Shown: piece after piece, positions 1 through 7,421 of the stretch
How positions within the stretch are numbered: the first letter of the stretch is position 1
Layout: the number at the start of each line of letters is the position of its first letter
NCBI RefSeq assembly: GCF_001956855.1
Contig: NZ_MTHD01000002.1
Location: forward strand, 682,001 to 746,000
Direction of reading: 5' to 3'
DNA from: Azonexus hydrophilus
GTDB taxonomy: Bacteria > Pseudomonadota > Gammaproteobacteria > Burkholderiales > Rhodocyclaceae
DNA length: 64,000 bases
The notes under the pieces: generated by a model
What the model was told of the DNA's origin: nothing
The model's input: the letters and a program-made list of their open reading frames with translations, nothing else
The model's database searches: none
Program-made: the position numbers and the translations under genes

Positions 1-454
1 CTAGCCAATTCCGTAAGCTATGCGCATCTTGTTCCGCTTGCTTGCGGACGTCGCCAGGCAGAATGGTTTTTTCTGCGGGATAGTTATATGACTTGTGAAT
101 ACCCAGAATATTTTCAAGCTCTACTTCGACCCGGACAAGATCATTTAGCACCCGCGCAGCCTGCTCAATGCCTGCGCCGCCAGTATCCGGAAGTGACCGG
201 AAGCGAGGGACCAGATCAACATGAACCGCCTCTCGGCGCAGCAAGGAATTGGCGGATACACCGTAGAAACGGCTCAGCGCTTGGATTTCATCGAGCCTGG
301 CGATACGTTGTCCCTTCTCAATGGAGACAAGCGTCGTACGAGCGACACCGGCTGCCTTGGCTGCAGCGTCTTGGGTAATGTTGGCGGTCTCCCGCGCAAT
401 CTTCAATCTTTCGCCCAGCTCTACTGGACTCAATTCATAGTTTGGCTTGGTCAT
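1..454 (-). CDS. XRE-family HTH protein, probable XRE/ImmA-IrrE fusion (partial, cut by window edge)
   Basis: Not covered by a complete ORF because it runs off the left edge; I translated it by hand from the ATG at 454. The first 151 residues are visible. Residues about 13-67 form an XRE helix-turn-helix (ERLKIARE..., ITQDAAAKAAGV, TTLVSIEKGQR). A helical stretch follows (RVEVELENILGI, then NYPAEKTILPGDVRKQAEQ) of the kind seen between the HTH and the metallopeptidase part of XRE-ImmA/IrrE (COG2856) proteins. The HExxH motif would lie outside the window, so the protease part is inferred. The start overlaps the stop of the upstream QueC-like gene as ATGA, so the two are translationally coupled. 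Likely role: DNA-binding regulator, possibly with a built-in protease that relieves repression, or a toxin-like effector of the cassette. Confidence 0.75.
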   Translation of the reverse strand, partial: MTKPNYELSPVELGERLKIARETANITQDAAAKAAGVARTTLVSIEKGQRIARLDEIQALSRFYGVSANSLLRREAVHVDLVPRFRSLPDTGGAGIEQAARVLNDLVRVEVELENILGIHKSYNYPAEKTILPGDVRKQAEQDAHSLRNWL

Positions 455-1824
455 AATGCGTCATCTATCCATTGCCTCACGAACGACCTCGATCCAAGGT
501 CGTTCGTGAATACAGACCATTCAATGGCGTGCTGCTGCAAGAGCCTGTCGAGGTTCTGCGCCACGGCTGCCGGCGGTTCTGACAGGGAGCGCGCCAGCTC
601 GTTCGTCCTTCGTCGTTTGATCAGCTCATACTGCACGGATTCACGAAGCGAAGCGAAGTGTTCAAAGTGAAGCACCCCTGCAATGGAATACTCACGCAAG
701 GCCAGCGTGAAGCTGGCGAAGTCTTTTGCCGCCCCACTCTCCCAGGTGGCGGCCTTCAGTGATTCCCATACATAGGTCTCGGGCGGTTCGTTCAAGCCAG
801 CAGCATGAACACTAAGACGACGGAGCATGCAAGCTGCACATACTCCGCATTGACGCCTTTCGCCCGAGACGGCCACCTGCCGCGATTGTTGCCAGCACGA
901 TCTGGTCGTTGCCCAGCGCGCTTCACTGCCGCAGACATCGACGAACTCGCGAAGGGTCTCACCCTTGGTCATCCACAGGCGCGGAAATCGATATTGAATC
1001 TGGTATCCGAGCAAGGCATTGAAGAAGCGTGCCATCAATGCAGTAAAACCCGGGTAACTCCGATAGTCCTCATAGCCCTGCCCGACGGGAAGAAAGACAG
1101 GTGCCAGTGCTCCCTGTCCGCTCTCGGGAACGATGACCGATGGAGCATCAATCAAATAGGCCGCCATCGTGGATACCACACTAAACTTGAAACCCCGGCT
1201 CCGAGCGCTGTTTTCAGCATTCCTGCCATTGTCAAGTTTGACGGAATACGGGAGGGCGGTGAAAGGGATCCGGAGACGGTCCTTTTTTGAGACGTCGTGC
1301 TGCTTGCTACCTACTCTCACGCGCACCAATCGGCGGCCAAGGCGGTTGCTCTCAAGCCCGGCAACCGCACACGAGTCCATTCCATCGCTATAGGCGAGGA
1401 CCGCTTCTGCATTGGAGGGAAACCTCATACGATCCTGCGGAGGACATTCTGCCGACGCCTTCCTAGCGCGGAATTCGAAGTGCCAGTCGTCCCCGGTCAG
1501 TAGGTTCAATGCCTCCACTAGCGCCCGGGTCACCGTTTTCTCTGACCATTTATCAGGATCATGAACAGGAATATGCACCAAGAATTTCCGCCCCCAGTTC
1601 ATGGCACTGCGGGCAAGACTGCGATCACAGAACTCCACTACTGCAGCCACGACAAGGGCGTCGTACACCGTCGTTTGCCATTTGATCGACGAGTAGGATT
1701 CAAGAGCTTCAAGGTCAAAATCGATGTTTTGCCCAAGTCGGCAGGGCACCATACCTTTGCGGCGACGCGCACCAGCTTCGACCACATCTACCGCAAGCTC
1801 CTTGAGAGGTAATGGGCTCGTCAC
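451..1824 (-). CDS. Divergent QueC-like PP-loop ATPase (457 aa)
   Basis: The PP-loop (SGGxDS in the family) reads YSDGMDS at about residues 144-150. A QueC-type zinc site lies at about 310-335: TRSC, then CGVCAACMLRR. QueC itself converts 7-carboxy-7-deazaguanine to preQ0 with ATP and is about 220-240 aa. This protein has about 130 extra N-terminal residues and ESGQGALAP where canonical QueC carries its GxNxxD-type substrate loop, so it is probably not a housekeeping QueC. QueC homologues are known in defence systems (QatC of QatABCD, Cap9 of some CBASS), which fits the neighbouring nucleases. The GTG start overlaps the upstream TGA (GTGA) and the stop overlaps the XRE gene (ATGA). The family call is firm; substrate and role are unknown. 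Confidence 0.8.
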   Translation of the reverse strand: MTSPLPLKELAVDVVEAGARRRKGMVPCRLGQNIDFDLEALESYSSIKWQTTVYDALVVAAVVEFCDRSLARSAMNWGRKFLVHIPVHDPDKWSEKTVTRALVEALNLLTGDDWHFEFRARKASAECPPQDRMRFPSNAEAVLAYSDGMDSCAVAGLESNRLGRRLVRVRVGSKQHDVSKKDRLRIPFTALPYSVKLDNGRNAENSARSRGFKFSVVSTMAAYLIDAPSVIVPESGQGALAPVFLPVGQGYEDYRSYPGFTALMARFFNALLGYQIQYRFPRLWMTKGETLREFVDVCGSEARWATTRSCWQQSRQVAVSGERRQCGVCAACMLRRLSVHAAGLNEPPETYVWESLKAATWESGAAKDFASFTLALREYSIAGVLHFEHFASLRESVQYELIKRRRTNELARSLSEPPAAVAQNLDRLLQQHAIEWSVFTNDLGSRSFVRQWIDDAL

Positions 1825-2390
1825 AAGCGCACTCCTTCGTCCAGATGAGTCTTTTTCTTGGGCCGACGGGCTCCAGCAACTTCAGGAGATACAAGCATTG
1901 CGCCCAATCTGCCATCTGAGAAGTTGGAAATTGCGCCAGAGAGTCGTGCGCTTACGTGATCCGCCCGCCGTTGGTTTGACTCCCGAAGGTAATGCTCTTC
2001 AACTTGCCGTACGTTTGCGAAACCACGCATCTTGGCTGCAAGGCCAATCGCTTCATGAAATGCATCCAAACCAAATCTACCTTCGTTAATGAGCTCAATG
2101 CTCCACGCGACTGCGTTCGTTCCAAAGACCGAGCCAGCGGCCAAGGACTTCGCCTCCTCAAGTTCTTGTAGAGCGATTTCAGGGAGCCCCAAAGAGTTGT
2201 CGCGGCCAGTGAAGATGGACTTCAACGCATCGACTAATGGCCACTTGATCTCGTTCTTGAAGTCGCTGGCAAGCGCGCCCGCTGCAGCTTCCGCAACTTG
2301 CTCAGCGTCATAAGTGCCCTGATCTCCGCGCTTGGCCAGTTCCTTCCAAGCCTTTCGCAGCGGCAAGCTTCTATGTGGTCCATCGCTCAT
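1821..2390 (-). CDS. Unknown protein, first gene of the QueC-like/XRE cassette (189 aa)
   Basis: I do not recognise a named domain. The protein starts MSDGPHRSLPLRKAWKE, a segment I recall from uncharacterised proteins beside QueC-like genes, though I cannot check this. It is largely helical and has no signal peptide or membrane segment. I chose the ATG at 2390 because GGAGG precedes it at about 7 nt; the open frame extends 17 codons further with no better start. The stop overlaps the GTG of the QueC-like gene by 4 nt, so stoichiometric coupling is likely. By analogy with QatB/QatC it could be the partner or substrate of the QueC-like enzyme, but that is inference only. Confidence 0.7.
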   Translation of the reverse strand: MSDGPHRSLPLRKAWKELAKRGDQGTYDAEQVAEAAAGALASDFKNEIKWPLVDALKSIFTGRDNSLGLPEIALQELEEAKSLAAGSVFGTNAVAWSIELINEGRFGLDAFHEAIGLAAKMRGFANVRQVEEHYLRESNQRRADHVSARLSGAISNFSDGRLGAMLVSPEVAGARRPKKKTHLDEGVRL

Positions 2391-2736
2391 GGCTTGACCT
2401 CCGTTTGTCAGATAATATTTTATTTTTTCAAACAATGTCAACTTTGCCAGTGGGATAGCCCAAGCTTAGTTCGGGGTCTGATGAAGCCGGCGACACACTG
2501 ACGGCTCCGTCGACGAAGTCATGATGTCGCCATGGTAATTCGACGTAGGGCTGAATTCCTTCAACACCGTGCATGGCGCGCTAGATGAAATGAATGCAGC
2601 CTCTCCTCCGGACCAAATCTGGCCGAGCGATAACTGATCGGATGGCTCGTGGCATACATCCATCCATGCGCTCCGGGTATGATTGTCCAATTTTATCGAC
2701 CGTAAACTCAGCGAGATTTGCCCGAAAAGGAATTAC
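2391..2736. other. Divergent intergenic region between the QueC-like cassette and the ATPase/HNH pair
   Basis: 346 bp without a credible gene. The left 50 bp hold the cassette promoter. The rest (about 2450-2700) has no protein-like reading frame and no clear hairpin terminator. The ATPase promoter must lie here but I could not identify it with confidence. Confidence 0.5.
2412..2441 (-). promoter_or_regulatory. Sigma70-type promoter of the QueC-like cassette
   Basis: Read on the minus strand: TTGACA (2441-2436), an 18 nt A/T-rich spacer, then TATTAT (2417-2412). The -10 lies about 22 nt before the ATG at 2390. This is the closest match to consensus in the window. It suggests strong transcription unless repressed, and the XRE protein encoded by the third gene is the obvious candidate repressor. 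Confidence 0.65.
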
Positions 2737-4245
2737 ATGGACGTTTATCTCAAGCAGAGGAAGGCTTCATTTCCTGCTGTCGCCGATCAAACCCAACCTT
2801 ACATTGTTCTTCAATGGGACAACTGGAACGACTACGACTACTACACGACATTCGTGGCCTACATTTGCTCAGATACCAGTAAAGGTGAAATTTTCACCCT
2901 TGGTGAGGTAAAGATAATGAGTAAGGGCCAGAAGAAAAACGAAAGCACATTCTCGCCGAATCTCGTTGGCCCCATCCGAATTCCAAGTCTTGCACCATAC
3001 GTGTGTTCACTTGGTTGCGAGATGGACTATTACAATCGCCTTGCGGAATTCCCTGAACAAGAGTTGGCTCTCGATTTTTTGCGATCCATGAATGATGCGG
3101 CGACAGACAGTGCTATCCGCACCGAATTTCAGGATGACGACTGTTTTAAGGTATCCCTGCTTCGCAGTCACTCCGCAAGAGTCGCGTTGGATGAGGCCGG
3201 CAAGCTCTTTGGTATTACTACAAACCTAGTCAGCGATTTTGTCGTCGAAGCTTCGTTGCCGAAAGCTCAGAGTCCCCACAAATTCCATTTCGACTTTCGT
3301 CCGAAAGACGGCCTCCCTCACAGAGTGCATGCCATGGTCGGCCAAAATGGCGTTGGAAAAACCCAAATCATGGCTCGCATAGCGATGTTGATGAGCCGCT
3401 TCTCGAAGAAGAGCCAGAAAGAAGGAACTTCAACTCTGGAAACGGAAGGGACGCTGTCTCCTGTTCCGTCCATATATAATGTTGTCGCCATTTCCTTCAG
3501 CGCGTTTGATGAATTTGAACGTCCTACGGTCCGACAAGGTGACGAGTTCAGATATAGCTACTGCGGTCTTAGGAGCCAGCGCGGTCGATTGCTTAGTGAA
3601 GACGATTTGCTCGAGAACATCCGTCGAATCATAAAGGAGGAACTCGATGAAACTAAAAAGAACATCCTCGCTGATGTGCTTGGGCAAATCATCAAGGTCG
3701 AGGATTTGCGCTCATTTATCTTTGATCCAGAGAAGCACCGAACACTCTATGACCGACTGAGTGCAGGCCAAAGGATCGCACTGAATGCGATCTTGCACAG
3801 CATGGCGAAGATTGAACCGCGCACGCTTATTCTCTTTGACGAGCCCGAGCTCCACCTTCATCCTCAACTTCTGACGACGATGCTTGCATCGTTATTTGAC
3901 ATCTTGGAACACTATGACTCGTTCGCGATCATAGCCACACACTCTCCAATTGTCATACAGCAGTTGCCAAGTTCGTGCGTTCACATTGTACTTAGAGATA
4001 GATTTCTGCCTTCGGTAATAGGTCTCAAGAATGAGCTCTTCGGAGAAAATCTTTCTGATATTACGCGCCAAGTATTTCTGAGTACTGAATCCGATCGAGA
4101 CTTCAGAAACTCTCTGGACAAATTGCTTGAAAGACACAATTTTGACGTCGAAAAGGTTGAGTCGCTTTTTGACGGTCGTTTGGGATTAAGCGCGCAAATC
4201 TATTTGGCGTCCCGGAAAGAGGCCTTAGCGCGGAGAAATACATGA
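2737..4245 (+). CDS. AAA/ABC-type ATPase, Septu PtuA-like (502 aa)
   Basis: ABC/OLD-like ATPase. Walker A GQNGVGKT is at about residues 202-209, the signature-like RLSAGQR precedes Walker B LILFDEPELHLHP at about 364-376, and the switch histidine is in ATHSP at about 400. The about 200 residues before Walker A are family-specific. I chose the ATG at 2737, preceded by AAAGGA, over an upstream TTG at 2683. The stop overlaps the HNH start by ATGA. An ATPase coupled to an HNH nuclease matches Septu (PtuA senses and gates, PtuB cuts), but other ATPase-HNH defence pairs and retron effectors share this layout. Lower GC than the core genome suggests transfer. Confidence 0.8.
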   Translation: MDVYLKQRKASFPAVADQTQPYIVLQWDNWNDYDYYTTFVAYICSDTSKGEIFTLGEVKIMSKGQKKNESTFSPNLVGPIRIPSLAPYVCSLGCEMDYYNRLAEFPEQELALDFLRSMNDAATDSAIRTEFQDDDCFKVSLLRSHSARVALDEAGKLFGITTNLVSDFVVEASLPKAQSPHKFHFDFRPKDGLPHRVHAMVGQNGVGKTQIMARIAMLMSRFSKKSQKEGTSTLETEGTLSPVPSIYNVVAISFSAFDEFERPTVRQGDEFRYSYCGLRSQRGRLLSEDDLLENIRRIIKEELDETKKNILADVLGQIIKVEDLRSFIFDPEKHRTLYDRLSAGQRIALNAILHSMAKIEPRTLILFDEPELHLHPQLLTTMLASLFDILEHYDSFAIIATHSPIVIQQLPSSCVHIVLRDRFLPSVIGLKNELFGENLSDITRQVFLSTESDRDFRNSLDKLLERHNFDVEKVESLFDGRLGLSAQIYLASRKEALARRNT

Positions 4246-5165
4246 GATTTCAAGCGCCGCCAAAAATTGAGTTCAAGGGAACATTCGAGGATATTGCGAA
4301 GGTAAAGCACTTGGCGACCAGAAATGCGCTCAGTCAACTTAACCCAACGGTCTTGGCAAGAGCAACCGTCTACCAGCAGCAACTATTGAGCCTGTCTGGC
4401 GTAGTGACCACTCCTTGGCCCGATGACGACAAGACGGCATTACGGTCCTGTTACGACTCGAACACAATCCCTCTGGGAAAGCTAAAAGATGGCCTTCTGA
4501 CCAATTTACGGCAGCAGTCCGCGTTGAATCTGACGGTCTGCCCCTATTGCATGGTGAGGCCGCCATCAACTTGGGATCATTACCTTCCACAGCACTGGTA
4601 TCCGGAGTTTTCGGTACTTCCAATCAATCTCGTGTACGTCTGCGGGAATTGCAATACGACGAAGTTGGAGAATAAGGACGACATACATCTTCTGTACGTT
4701 CACCCCTACTTTTATCCGGACCCGACTGCAGTCATTCTGCACTGCCAAGCGAAGATCGAGGCGGGTCGACTAACTCTTTCGTTCTACTGCGCTCCGCCAG
4801 CAGGGGCTCCACCGACACCGTCCGTCACAAAGCTTGCGGAAGTTGGCCAACGGCATGTCGAGAAACTCGCTCTGGAGAGCACGTATCAATCCGAAGCAGG
4901 GTCAATTGTGGGAACGTTTGTTGCCGAGCTTCGCCGCGACTTTCCAAACGGTATTTCCGAACCGATCCTGAAAGATTTGGTCCTCAAGCGACATCAGCTA
5001 ATCGAAGTAGACCACGGGCCCAACGCTTGGGAGGCAAGGTTGTGGGCGGCGCTATACCATTTCGCAGACCTTCAAGCCTACATTAACGCTGAGATTTCAA
5101 AACCTCAGCGCATCCTTCGGGGCGGCATTGAGGTCCCTCCTCCGCCGCCGCCAGCAAATCATTAG
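4242..5165 (+). CDS. HNH endonuclease, Septu PtuB-like (307 aa)
   Basis: The HNH zinc-finger core spans about residues 100-137: CPYC, then WDHYLP with the catalytic-type His, then PINLVYVCGNCN. The spacing and the YPEFSVLPINL segment resemble PtuB and retron-linked HNH proteins. The C-terminal half is helical and of unknown function, ending in a proline run (PPPPPPANH). The ATG lies inside the stop region of the ATPase, so the two are co-translated. Predicted to be a nuclease controlled by the ATPase and active during phage infection; the target (DNA or tRNA) cannot be read from sequence. Confidence 0.8.
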   Translation: MRFQAPPKIEFKGTFEDIAKVKHLATRNALSQLNPTVLARATVYQQQLLSLSGVVTTPWPDDDKTALRSCYDSNTIPLGKLKDGLLTNLRQQSALNLTVCPYCMVRPPSTWDHYLPQHWYPEFSVLPINLVYVCGNCNTTKLENKDDIHLLYVHPYFYPDPTAVILHCQAKIEAGRLTLSFYCAPPAGAPPTPSVTKLAEVGQRHVEKLALESTYQSEAGSIVGTFVAELRRDFPNGISEPILKDLVLKRHQLIEVDHGPNAWEARLWAALYHFADLQAYINAEISKPQRILRGGIEVPPPPPPANH

Positions 5166-5345: not shown

Positions 5346-7421
5346 CTAAACTGCTGTCAGATCAGGCTGTTTTATTTTCGGGCCGGATTTTGCGGCAGGA
5401 AGTTGTTTCAAGCTTTCCACAAGCTTGTTGCGCGGGATTTTTTTGCCTGCCTTTCCGTCTGCGATCGGTGACGACTCTGCTCCAAAACACAAGGTGAGGT
5501 AGGAGGATAGGTCGTCCGGTGTATTAGAGAGATTGATGTTCCACCTTCTCTCAATGAACTTTAGGATCGCCACGCCGCGGATGCCGATAGTCAGCGCGTT
5601 CCAGTGCTCAAAGGTTTGAGCAACCTCTGTCGCTGAATAGCTTGCGTTGCTGAACTTACCTCGCTTGCCTACTTCAGCACCCTTTTCAATCAGCGTATAG
5701 GCTTCGTTCGATGCTGACGAATTGGCACTTCTGGACAGAAAGAGTAGGTTGCCGACGGAATTCTGAAGCGCTTTACTTAGCCTGCGGTTACGGTTAGACC
5801 GGCCATCAATCTCGAAATGCTTGTCCCAGTATGCTTTCCCCTTACCGGCAGGGTCCCGAGGATAGATATGCTCAACGGTCTCGTCGAAGGAGAAGTCATT
5901 CCAACCAAGCTTGACGGGATTGTTCCCATTCTTGTGGAAACTTTCCTCGTACTCGTACATGGCCAATCGTGCGAAATCCCACTTGTAATAGCCTTCATTT
6001 TCCCGGAATCGACGTTCTACGGCTCTAAGGACATCCTCTTCCGAAAAGATGCCAGACCAAGGAAAACGGCTGTCAGTAAATGATCCGTCCTCGTACTCAG
6101 TGTTATCGACCCACGCTTTTACGAAACCTGCCACCAGATGAATGGCCTCAGAGGTTTCTAGCTTATTGATCCCATTTCTCTCAGAGAAAAAACCGTCACG
6201 TCCATGCTCTAAGAGCGAATAGGCAGCCCCATCCATATCTGCCTTGCCAAGACTCCCGCGGTTACCGAGGAGTCGTAAGACGATAACGATGAAGCGTTCC
6301 ACCTGCTCGAGAAGGTCGACGACACTTGCCAAGTCGTTCTCGTGATTATTCGGGTTTACTACGGCTTCCCTCAAACCTGTCGAAGCTCGCATGTAGGCAG
6401 AGAGAAGCAATGGCTTAAAGTACGCAAAGCCAGCATGTGCGATTCGCTCAAGCCACTTCTGGTGAATCTTAGGCATCCGGCTTGGGGCATGGATGTGAGA
6501 CCACCAAGCTGCGCCATGTTCAAGGCTTTTGACATAGTCGCGTATGAGATCTAGCGAAAGGTCGCCATTGCCTACGGCAAATGTGTTTTCAAAGAGAGTC
6601 TTCTCCAGCCATTCCGCTTCCCGCTTTCTCTTGAAATAGGCTGTTGCGTGCGCTAGCAAAAATTCATCGTCATGATTTTGGGTCTTAGGGCTTCTGCCCA
6701 AGCAGCCATAAATACCTTTCCAAGCCTCGTGTATCTCAAGTCTCAGGTTCGCGGTAACTGCCGCATCCCCCTTCAGGGCCGTGGTGAGGTAAATCAGACG
6801 ATTTTTGAGCAACTCCATTTGCGACAGGCGGCGGCCACGATTATTGAGAGTCTCGAATGCTACGTGGATATCAAACCCATTCGAGACCTCCAGGATAAAG
6901 AGCCGGAAATTTTCGAGAAGAATTTTTAATAGATTCCCGGCTTGCGCCTCGGACAATCTGCTCGCGCACTCCTCAAAATACTTTGCTGCATCTCGAATAT
7001 TGAGGGCGTAGCTTGACGGTTCAAGAGCCAGACGGGTTGCGATAGCACTGTTATTCAGCGCATAGAAGTCGAAAAAATTCTGTAAATCCGTGTTCTTATT
7101 GAAGGTCAGATCATAGGACTCGAAAGGCTTGCCCAATCGTTGACGAAGTGCGTTGGCAAGGATCATTACCGTAATCAGACGCTGTTGGCCGTCGATCACC
7201 TCAACGCAATTGGCTTCTGTGCTGGCCTTGCACGGACGCAGCAGCATCATTCCCGTGAAGTGTTGTTGGGCATTGGTTTGCGCAATGTTTTCCATGTCTT
7301 GCCAGAGTGCTTTCCACTGAGCCTCGCTCCAGGCGTAACCACGCTGATAATCAGGAATAACAAAGCTGTACCCGGAGAGTACGTCGCCAAGCCCTCTTAA
7401 TTCTGCACCAGAAAATGCCAT
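5346..7421 (-). CDS. DUF262-DUF1524 single-chain GmrSD-type restriction protein (691 aa)
   Basis: The N-terminal DUF262 (ParB/Srx-like NTPase) shows DYQRGYAW at about 24-31 and VEVIDGQQR at about 73-81. A later FETLNNRGRRL loop is also typical of the family. The C-terminal DUF1524 HNH-like nuclease shows TVEHIYP near 515-521 and NSVGNLLFLS further on. In GmrSD, the S and D parts hydrolyse NTP and cut glucosylated or otherwise modified phage DNA; single-chain forms such as BrxU do the same. All key motifs look intact. AGGAG precedes the ATG. It is transcribed toward the HNH gene of the Septu-like pair, separated by 180 bp with no clear terminator. Confidence 0.88.
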   Translation of the reverse strand: MAFSGAELRGLGDVLSGYSFVIPDYQRGYAWSEAQWKALWQDMENIAQTNAQQHFTGMMLLRPCKASTEANCVEVIDGQQRLITVMILANALRQRLGKPFESYDLTFNKNTDLQNFFDFYALNNSAIATRLALEPSSYALNIRDAAKYFEECASRLSEAQAGNLLKILLENFRLFILEVSNGFDIHVAFETLNNRGRRLSQMELLKNRLIYLTTALKGDAAVTANLRLEIHEAWKGIYGCLGRSPKTQNHDDEFLLAHATAYFKRKREAEWLEKTLFENTFAVGNGDLSLDLIRDYVKSLEHGAAWWSHIHAPSRMPKIHQKWLERIAHAGFAYFKPLLLSAYMRASTGLREAVVNPNNHENDLASVVDLLEQVERFIVIVLRLLGNRGSLGKADMDGAAYSLLEHGRDGFFSERNGINKLETSEAIHLVAGFVKAWVDNTEYEDGSFTDSRFPWSGIFSEEDVLRAVERRFRENEGYYKWDFARLAMYEYEESFHKNGNNPVKLGWNDFSFDETVEHIYPRDPAGKGKAYWDKHFEIDGRSNRNRRLSKALQNSVGNLLFLSRSANSSASNEAYTLIEKGAEVGKRGKFSNASYSATEVAQTFEHWNALTIGIRGVAILKFIERRWNINLSNTPDDLSSYLTLCFGAESSPIADGKAGKKIPRNKLVESLKQLPAAKSGPKIKQPDLTAV

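Follow-up and report, generated by a model that had tools for sequence, protein, structure and literature searches.

A four-gene operon that combines QatBC-like and RosmerTA-like pairs resembles an undescribed antiviral immune system

Does a QueC-like enzyme encoded between a small protein and an XRE-type regulator belong to a defense system, and what would it act on? The question arises at the left edge of a 64,000-nt stretch of the Azonexus hydrophilus genome (G000:C10:682001-746000, hereafter the window). There, the initial annotation, made from the letters alone, had described three minus-strand genes with 4-nt overlaps at both junctions as one unit. The overlaps are present at 1821-1824, between the gene for the small protein (P1) and the enzyme gene, and at 451-454, between the enzyme and XRE genes. 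The three genes do recur together, but a PIN-like gene left of the window also belongs to the operon, ruling out the trio as the complete unit. The operon looks like an undescribed antiviral immune system, with a putative role in phage defense.

1821..2390, minus strand: P1, 189 amino acids (aa), N-terminus MSDGPHRSLP by translation
451..1824, minus strand: QueC-like, QatC-type enzyme, 457 aa, GTG start
2..454, minus strand: XRE-ImmA protein of 389 residues, the first 151 within the window; the whole gene is L002:9285-10454
L002:8648-9310 (G000:C10:680648-681310), minus strand: PIN-like gene, 220 aa, left of the window

The XRE-ImmA and PIN-like genes overlap by 26 nt, which is also the commonest overlap at this junction among relatives (37/67 loci). 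With the window's own locus included, 64 of 71 loci have a 4-nt overlap between P1 and the enzyme and 59 of 71 between the enzyme and XRE-ImmA, counted with whichever start codon lay closest to the expected site, a choice that favors overlaps.

The four genes recur in a fixed order

We scanned genome contigs for P1 and obtained 72 loci besides our own (L003-L074), chosen by the peptides MSDGPHRS and W[KR][ED]LA[KM]R[GA]D. Profiles built from our own proteins detected the enzyme in 70 of these, XRE-ImmA in 70 and the PIN-like protein in 66, and all four genes stand in one order in 66/72. Loci found independently through the enzyme gave the same picture: all 29 (10 genomes and 19 plasmids, again without our own) hold P1, enzyme, XRE-ImmA and PIN in this order. 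The plasmids come from 25 records matching the enzyme at E≤1e-30, of which 14 are typed as conjugative; we examined 19, the six omitted being close copies as judged from the listing. The initial annotation had asked whether the genes recur as a unit, and they do: the four-gene operon is real, widespread and rigidly ordered, and recurs far beyond chance.

The incomplete loci are few. The enzyme and XRE-ImmA are missing from L069, where the contig ends, and from L074, which holds only pieces of P1. The PIN-like gene is missing from these two, from L004, L030 and L044 (contig ends) and from L070. This last locus has P1, enzyme and XRE-ImmA and no PIN match in the roughly 3 kb that come next; PIN may have given way to another toxin there. 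Split or degenerate copies of single genes also occur (enzyme in L118, L043, L044 and L051; XRE-ImmA in L032; P1 in L074).

Strong enzyme matches were found in 4 of 398 phylum-sampled genomes, our own included; 369 genomes of the class added one more, and one taxonomic order another six. A query with the PIN-like family returned four matches in the 398 genomes, exactly the four that carry the enzyme. Between the four proteins, correlations of pairwise distance lie at 0.91-0.94 (62 loci), as expected for genes that travel together. In the short stretches read around weaker enzyme matches (QatC or GH type), we saw no P1, XRE-ImmA or PIN. The tree names Pseudomonadota, Acidobacteriota, Binatota and Thermodesulfobacteriota; titles of P1-found loci also name Planctomycetales and Caldilineaceae assembled genomes, which may be binning errors. 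A conserved fifth gene was ruled out, as the upstream neighbors fall into small groups only.

A QatC-like enzyme that keeps the QueC base-reading motif

The enzyme has a PP-loop (SDGMDS, residues 146-151) and four zinc-type cysteines (310, 326, 329 and 332), as initially annotated. The extension noted there at about 130 N-terminal residues is present and counts 145 before the PP-loop. The substrate loop, in contrast, had been called altered, and this does not hold: it keeps the QueC pattern Y-x-D-x-R, with Y251 and D253, and is not QatC-like. Across 71 aligned enzyme rows, which include partial pieces of split genes, the PP-loop S, G, D and S are present in all 71, and in the motif, which aligns to YPDCR of canonical QueC, Y is kept in 68 and D and R in all 71. 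In QueC and Cap9 the Y and D read the base, and in QatC their places are taken by Thr, according to excerpts of PMC13279940.

The protein is related to QatC along its whole length and matches the QatC fold over 388 residues. It scores 126.8 bits against the NCBIfam QatC equivalog, below the 280-bit cut-off. It shares the PP-loop, zinc cysteines and YxDxR motif with canonical QueC but is twice as long and falls in a different group in a tree of 50 proteins (100/100 support). As a canonical queC also lies elsewhere in the genome, a housekeeping role, which the initial annotation had named as the outcome that would count against its proposal, is ruled out.

As in qatABCD (excerpts of PMC13279940; PDB 9y01, 9y02), a QueC core carries N- and C-terminal extensions. 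However, QatC has T-x-T with two invariant Thr where our enzyme has Y-x-D, the two form separate tree groups, and QatA (a KAP NTPase) and QatD (a TatD nuclease) are replaced by XRE-ImmA and a PIN-like protein. Cap9 shares the PP-loop, the zinc site, Y-x-D and a neighboring protein whose N-terminus is fixed (PMC11996544 and PMC13279940, in part); it is short, about 185 residues (PMC13329287), compared to 457 here, and the partner in type IV CBASS (cyclic oligonucleotide-based antiphage signaling system) is a CD-NTase. The four genes hold no QatA, QatD or CD-NTase, in agreement with the initial annotation.

A further pairing appeared in the searches: in L079/L125, L080, L081, L110/L123, L111/L124 and L155, a partner of about 260 aa starting MGHxxLGxxP directly precedes a QueC-like gene whose open frame spans 451-718 aa. 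These GH-type enzymes have an RTTHP loop like QatC where read and form their own tree group beside QatC. Serine recombinases lie near the pair in L123-L125.

P1 has a constrained N-terminus

P1 is predicted to be a small all-helical protein (model predicted local distance difference test score 90). We found 446 homologs at E≤0.001 (120 among the matches listed), and no family in PADLOC, Pfam or NCBIfam matched it at E≤0.1. As P1-peptide seeding partly builds in conservation, we assessed the N-terminus in enzyme-found loci only, where the P1 start was placed by the pattern M-x-D-G (L119 was read from its annotated GTG). In these 26 sequences, identity is 0.65 over columns 2-8 versus 0.23 beyond column 20. 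The protein begins M-[S/T]-D-G-P in 24/26 and M-[Q/R]-D-G-I in the remaining two. This constraint resembles that on the MGTS end of QatB, though the residues differ. N-terminal modification of the partner has been demonstrated in CBASS, and QatB has been proposed to undergo it (PMC13279940; PMC11996544, both in part).

Two basal members, L119 and L128, have Arg or Gln as P1 residue 2 and a Y-x-D motif that is altered or lost. With two cases only, removal of the N-terminal Met may be connected with recognition of the base.

The P1 C-terminus (DEGVPL) is also conserved. We set it aside as a second functional tail because the Shine-Dalgarno-like sequence of the enzyme gene is encoded there.

2398..2402, minus strand: Shine-Dalgarno-like GGAGG before P1
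1832..1838, minus strand: GAAGGAG, Shine-Dalgarno-like, within the D-E-G-V codons of the P1 C-terminus and 7 nt ahead of the enzyme GTG

Homology of P1 to other partners was considered and set aside. Sequence kinship with QatB is undetectable and structural support for a shared fold weak. For the GH-type partner the hhalign probability is just 7.8%, and two of its five rows lack the first residues; P1 and this partner share a similar register (LP at 9-10, W15).

A candidate toxin-antitoxin pair behind a palindromic promoter

The third gene had been annotated as XRE, possibly ImmA-like, and extending it left of the window reveals the anticipated HExxH motif (HELGH, residues 213-217) and a peptidase domain. 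The full 389-aa protein combines helix-turn-helix (HTH) and Peptidase_M78 domains, found in 40/40 proteins; H213, E214 and H217 are invariant in the 40 aligned proteins. It matches RmrA, the ImmA-type antitoxin of RosmerTA, at 3.2e-33. A C-terminal UPF0175 match was found at E≤0.01 in 21/40 proteins (our own scores 23 bits, under the Pfam cut-off); UPF0175 is listed beside PIN in PMC2701414 (excerpts).

The adjacent family has invariant D17, E50, D101 and D120 in 35 proteins. Pfam recognizes PIN in just 3/35; our protein matches PADLOC PDC-S70 at 8.3e-10, and one plasmid copy is annotated PIN. Fusions of XRE and ImmA with PIN neighbors were described in 2009 (COG2856-Xre; PMC2701414), and the ImmA antitoxins of RosmerTA (RmrA/RmrT) work with various toxins (PMC10440598), in both cases according to parts of these papers. 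Our pair resembles these in having an HTH-bearing ImmA-type antitoxin candidate directly beside a toxin candidate. Unlike RosmerTA, it comes together with P1 and the enzyme, and its PIN family was not seen without the enzyme in the 398 genomes.

The initial annotation had also noted one strong promoter, and P1 is indeed preceded by a near-consensus sigma-70 promoter (TTGACA-18 nt-TATTAT, 11/12 matches). The stretch holds three promoter-like sites compared to a mean of 0.3 in shuffles.

2436..2441, minus strand: -35 box TTGACA, from the promoter search
2412..2417, minus strand: -10 box TATTAT, from the promoter search
2428..2440, minus strand: operator-like site TGACATTGTTTGA over the -35 box, an imperfect copy of the relatives' palindrome TGACANTGTCA
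2406..2410, minus strand: second half-site TGACA between the -10 box and the start codon; printed relatives have similar second sites

Among 67 upstream stretches of 160 bp, TTGACA is present in 65 and GACANTGTC in 61, compared to 14 of 1320 stretches drawn at random from the same loci. In printed relatives GACANTGTC overlaps the -35 box and often repeats near the start. The window's own copy (TGACATTGTTTGA plus the half-site) is imperfect and falls outside the 61. Read from sequence, the palindrome points to autorepression of the operon by the XRE domain, which would bind there.

Proposed mechanism

By the defining features we examined, the operon is neither qatABCD nor CBASS: a QatBC-like pair is here coupled with one that resembles RosmerTA. 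We found no description of it in open PMC papers (subscription papers and bioRxiv lie outside that coverage); the PADLOC database used was the 2023 version, and phrogs lay outside the scans. As in the initial interpretation, an enzyme that acts on P1 under XRE control is the best reading. We tentatively hypothesize, at a little under an even chance, a defense-type operon that couples N-terminal protein modification to the toxin-antitoxin pair. The enzyme would bind P1, probably via its C-terminal extension, as QatC binds QatB, and would use ATP to activate carboxylated 7-deazaguanine (CDG) or a related acid. The activated acid would then be joined to the N-terminal amine of P1 (Ser2 or Thr2 after Met removal), making P1 an armed sensor. 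Meanwhile, XRE-ImmA would sit on the palindrome that covers the -35 box, repressing the operon, and would keep the PIN nuclease inactive, perhaps through its UPF0175-like tail. Upon infection, P1 might trigger the ImmA peptidase or strip XRE-ImmA off the toxin, and the freed PIN would cut RNA and stop the cell.

The same operon anatomy could serve the opposite logic. Modified P1 might act as a safety tag that keeps XRE-ImmA on PIN, such that a phage that depletes the cofactor or blocks the enzyme causes unmodified P1 to accumulate and the toxin to be freed. Tag and guard would be made together, as one operon carries the enzyme gene and, after it, those of antitoxin and toxin, and hosts with canonical QueC (>180 bits in 8/11 operon-bearing sampled genomes) would produce the base constantly. 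However, defense by CBASS and Qat needs the modification or the acceptor residue (PMC13279940; PMC11996544, in part), which favors arming, and we regard the safety tag as a minority possibility.

The hosts also bear on the donor. The three sampled genomes without canonical QueC (G818, G986 and G1002) are near-complete, and we detected no QueE in them except a weak match in G1002 (2.4e-4) and no QueD except a weak match in G986 (9.8e-4). Their enzymes (L152, L149 and L148) still keep Y-x-D. Three hosts without a convincing CDG pathway weigh against the mechanism proposed above and call CDG as the substrate into question, within the limited sensitivity of this pathway search: G874 and G032 have QueC yet no convincing QueE, and the QueD of our own genome was detected by the family model only, under its cut-off. 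Since the motif favors a CDG donor and the hosts question it, salvage, another acid or a phage-made base is possible.

If another carboxylic acid were joined to the P1 N-terminus, or P1 were modified elsewhere, control by XRE-ImmA and PIN would be unchanged. The three hosts argue for this, as does QatC, whose base-reading residues are changed and whose own substrate is not known (PMC13279940, in part); the conserved Y-x-D-x-R, which aligns to the CDG-reading motif, argues against it, and we consider it unlikely. 7-Deazaguanines are known in phage DNA (excerpts of PMC6884629). The enzyme might instead sense the foreign base: in hosts lacking CDG, it would arrive only with a phage carrying 7-deazaguanine DNA, and tagging of P1 would be the alarm that frees PIN. 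We find this very improbable.

Next to the pairs Cap9/CD-NTase and QatC/QatB, the operon would add another, separate case of a QueC-family enzyme with a fixed-N-terminus partner, in this case upstream of an obvious toxin-antitoxin candidate. The toxin readout and the retained Y-x-D would make the action of QatC-type enzymes on their partners directly testable.

Mobility and genomic neighbors

The plasmid carriage described above, together with integrases and transposases among the neighbors, raises the alternative that the operon is an addiction module of plasmids or islands, carrying an unusual accessory pair and serving maintenance more than phage defense. Against this stand the defense-type neighbors and the relatives of both halves, QatBC and RosmerTA, which protect against phages (PMC13279940 and PMC10440598, in part); we judge it improbable as the main role. 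Phage or viral carriage was rejected: phage records yielded nothing at E≤1e-5, and the eight pattern-matching stretches in viral contigs include no relatives; this absence does not separate addiction from defense.

The initial annotation had also raised recurrence near defense genes, and the unit often lies beside defense or toxin-antitoxin genes. We scanned 66 upstream and 54 downstream of 158 flanking open reading frames, picked by length, plus two window proteins. Raw counts, taken among the 25 most frequent families, were AbiEii 5, AbiEi 4, Fic 4, HipA 2 and RES 2 upstream, and mad2 4, AriA 3, and Type II and Type IIG methyltransferases 2 each downstream. On plasmids, the operon has integrases, transposases, AbiE, Fic, Shedu or restriction genes nearby. 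In the window, the immediate neighbors are as follows.

2683-5165, plus strand: PtuA-like ATPase and partner (PADLOC PDC-M01A/B)
5346-7421, minus strand: GmrSD-type protein
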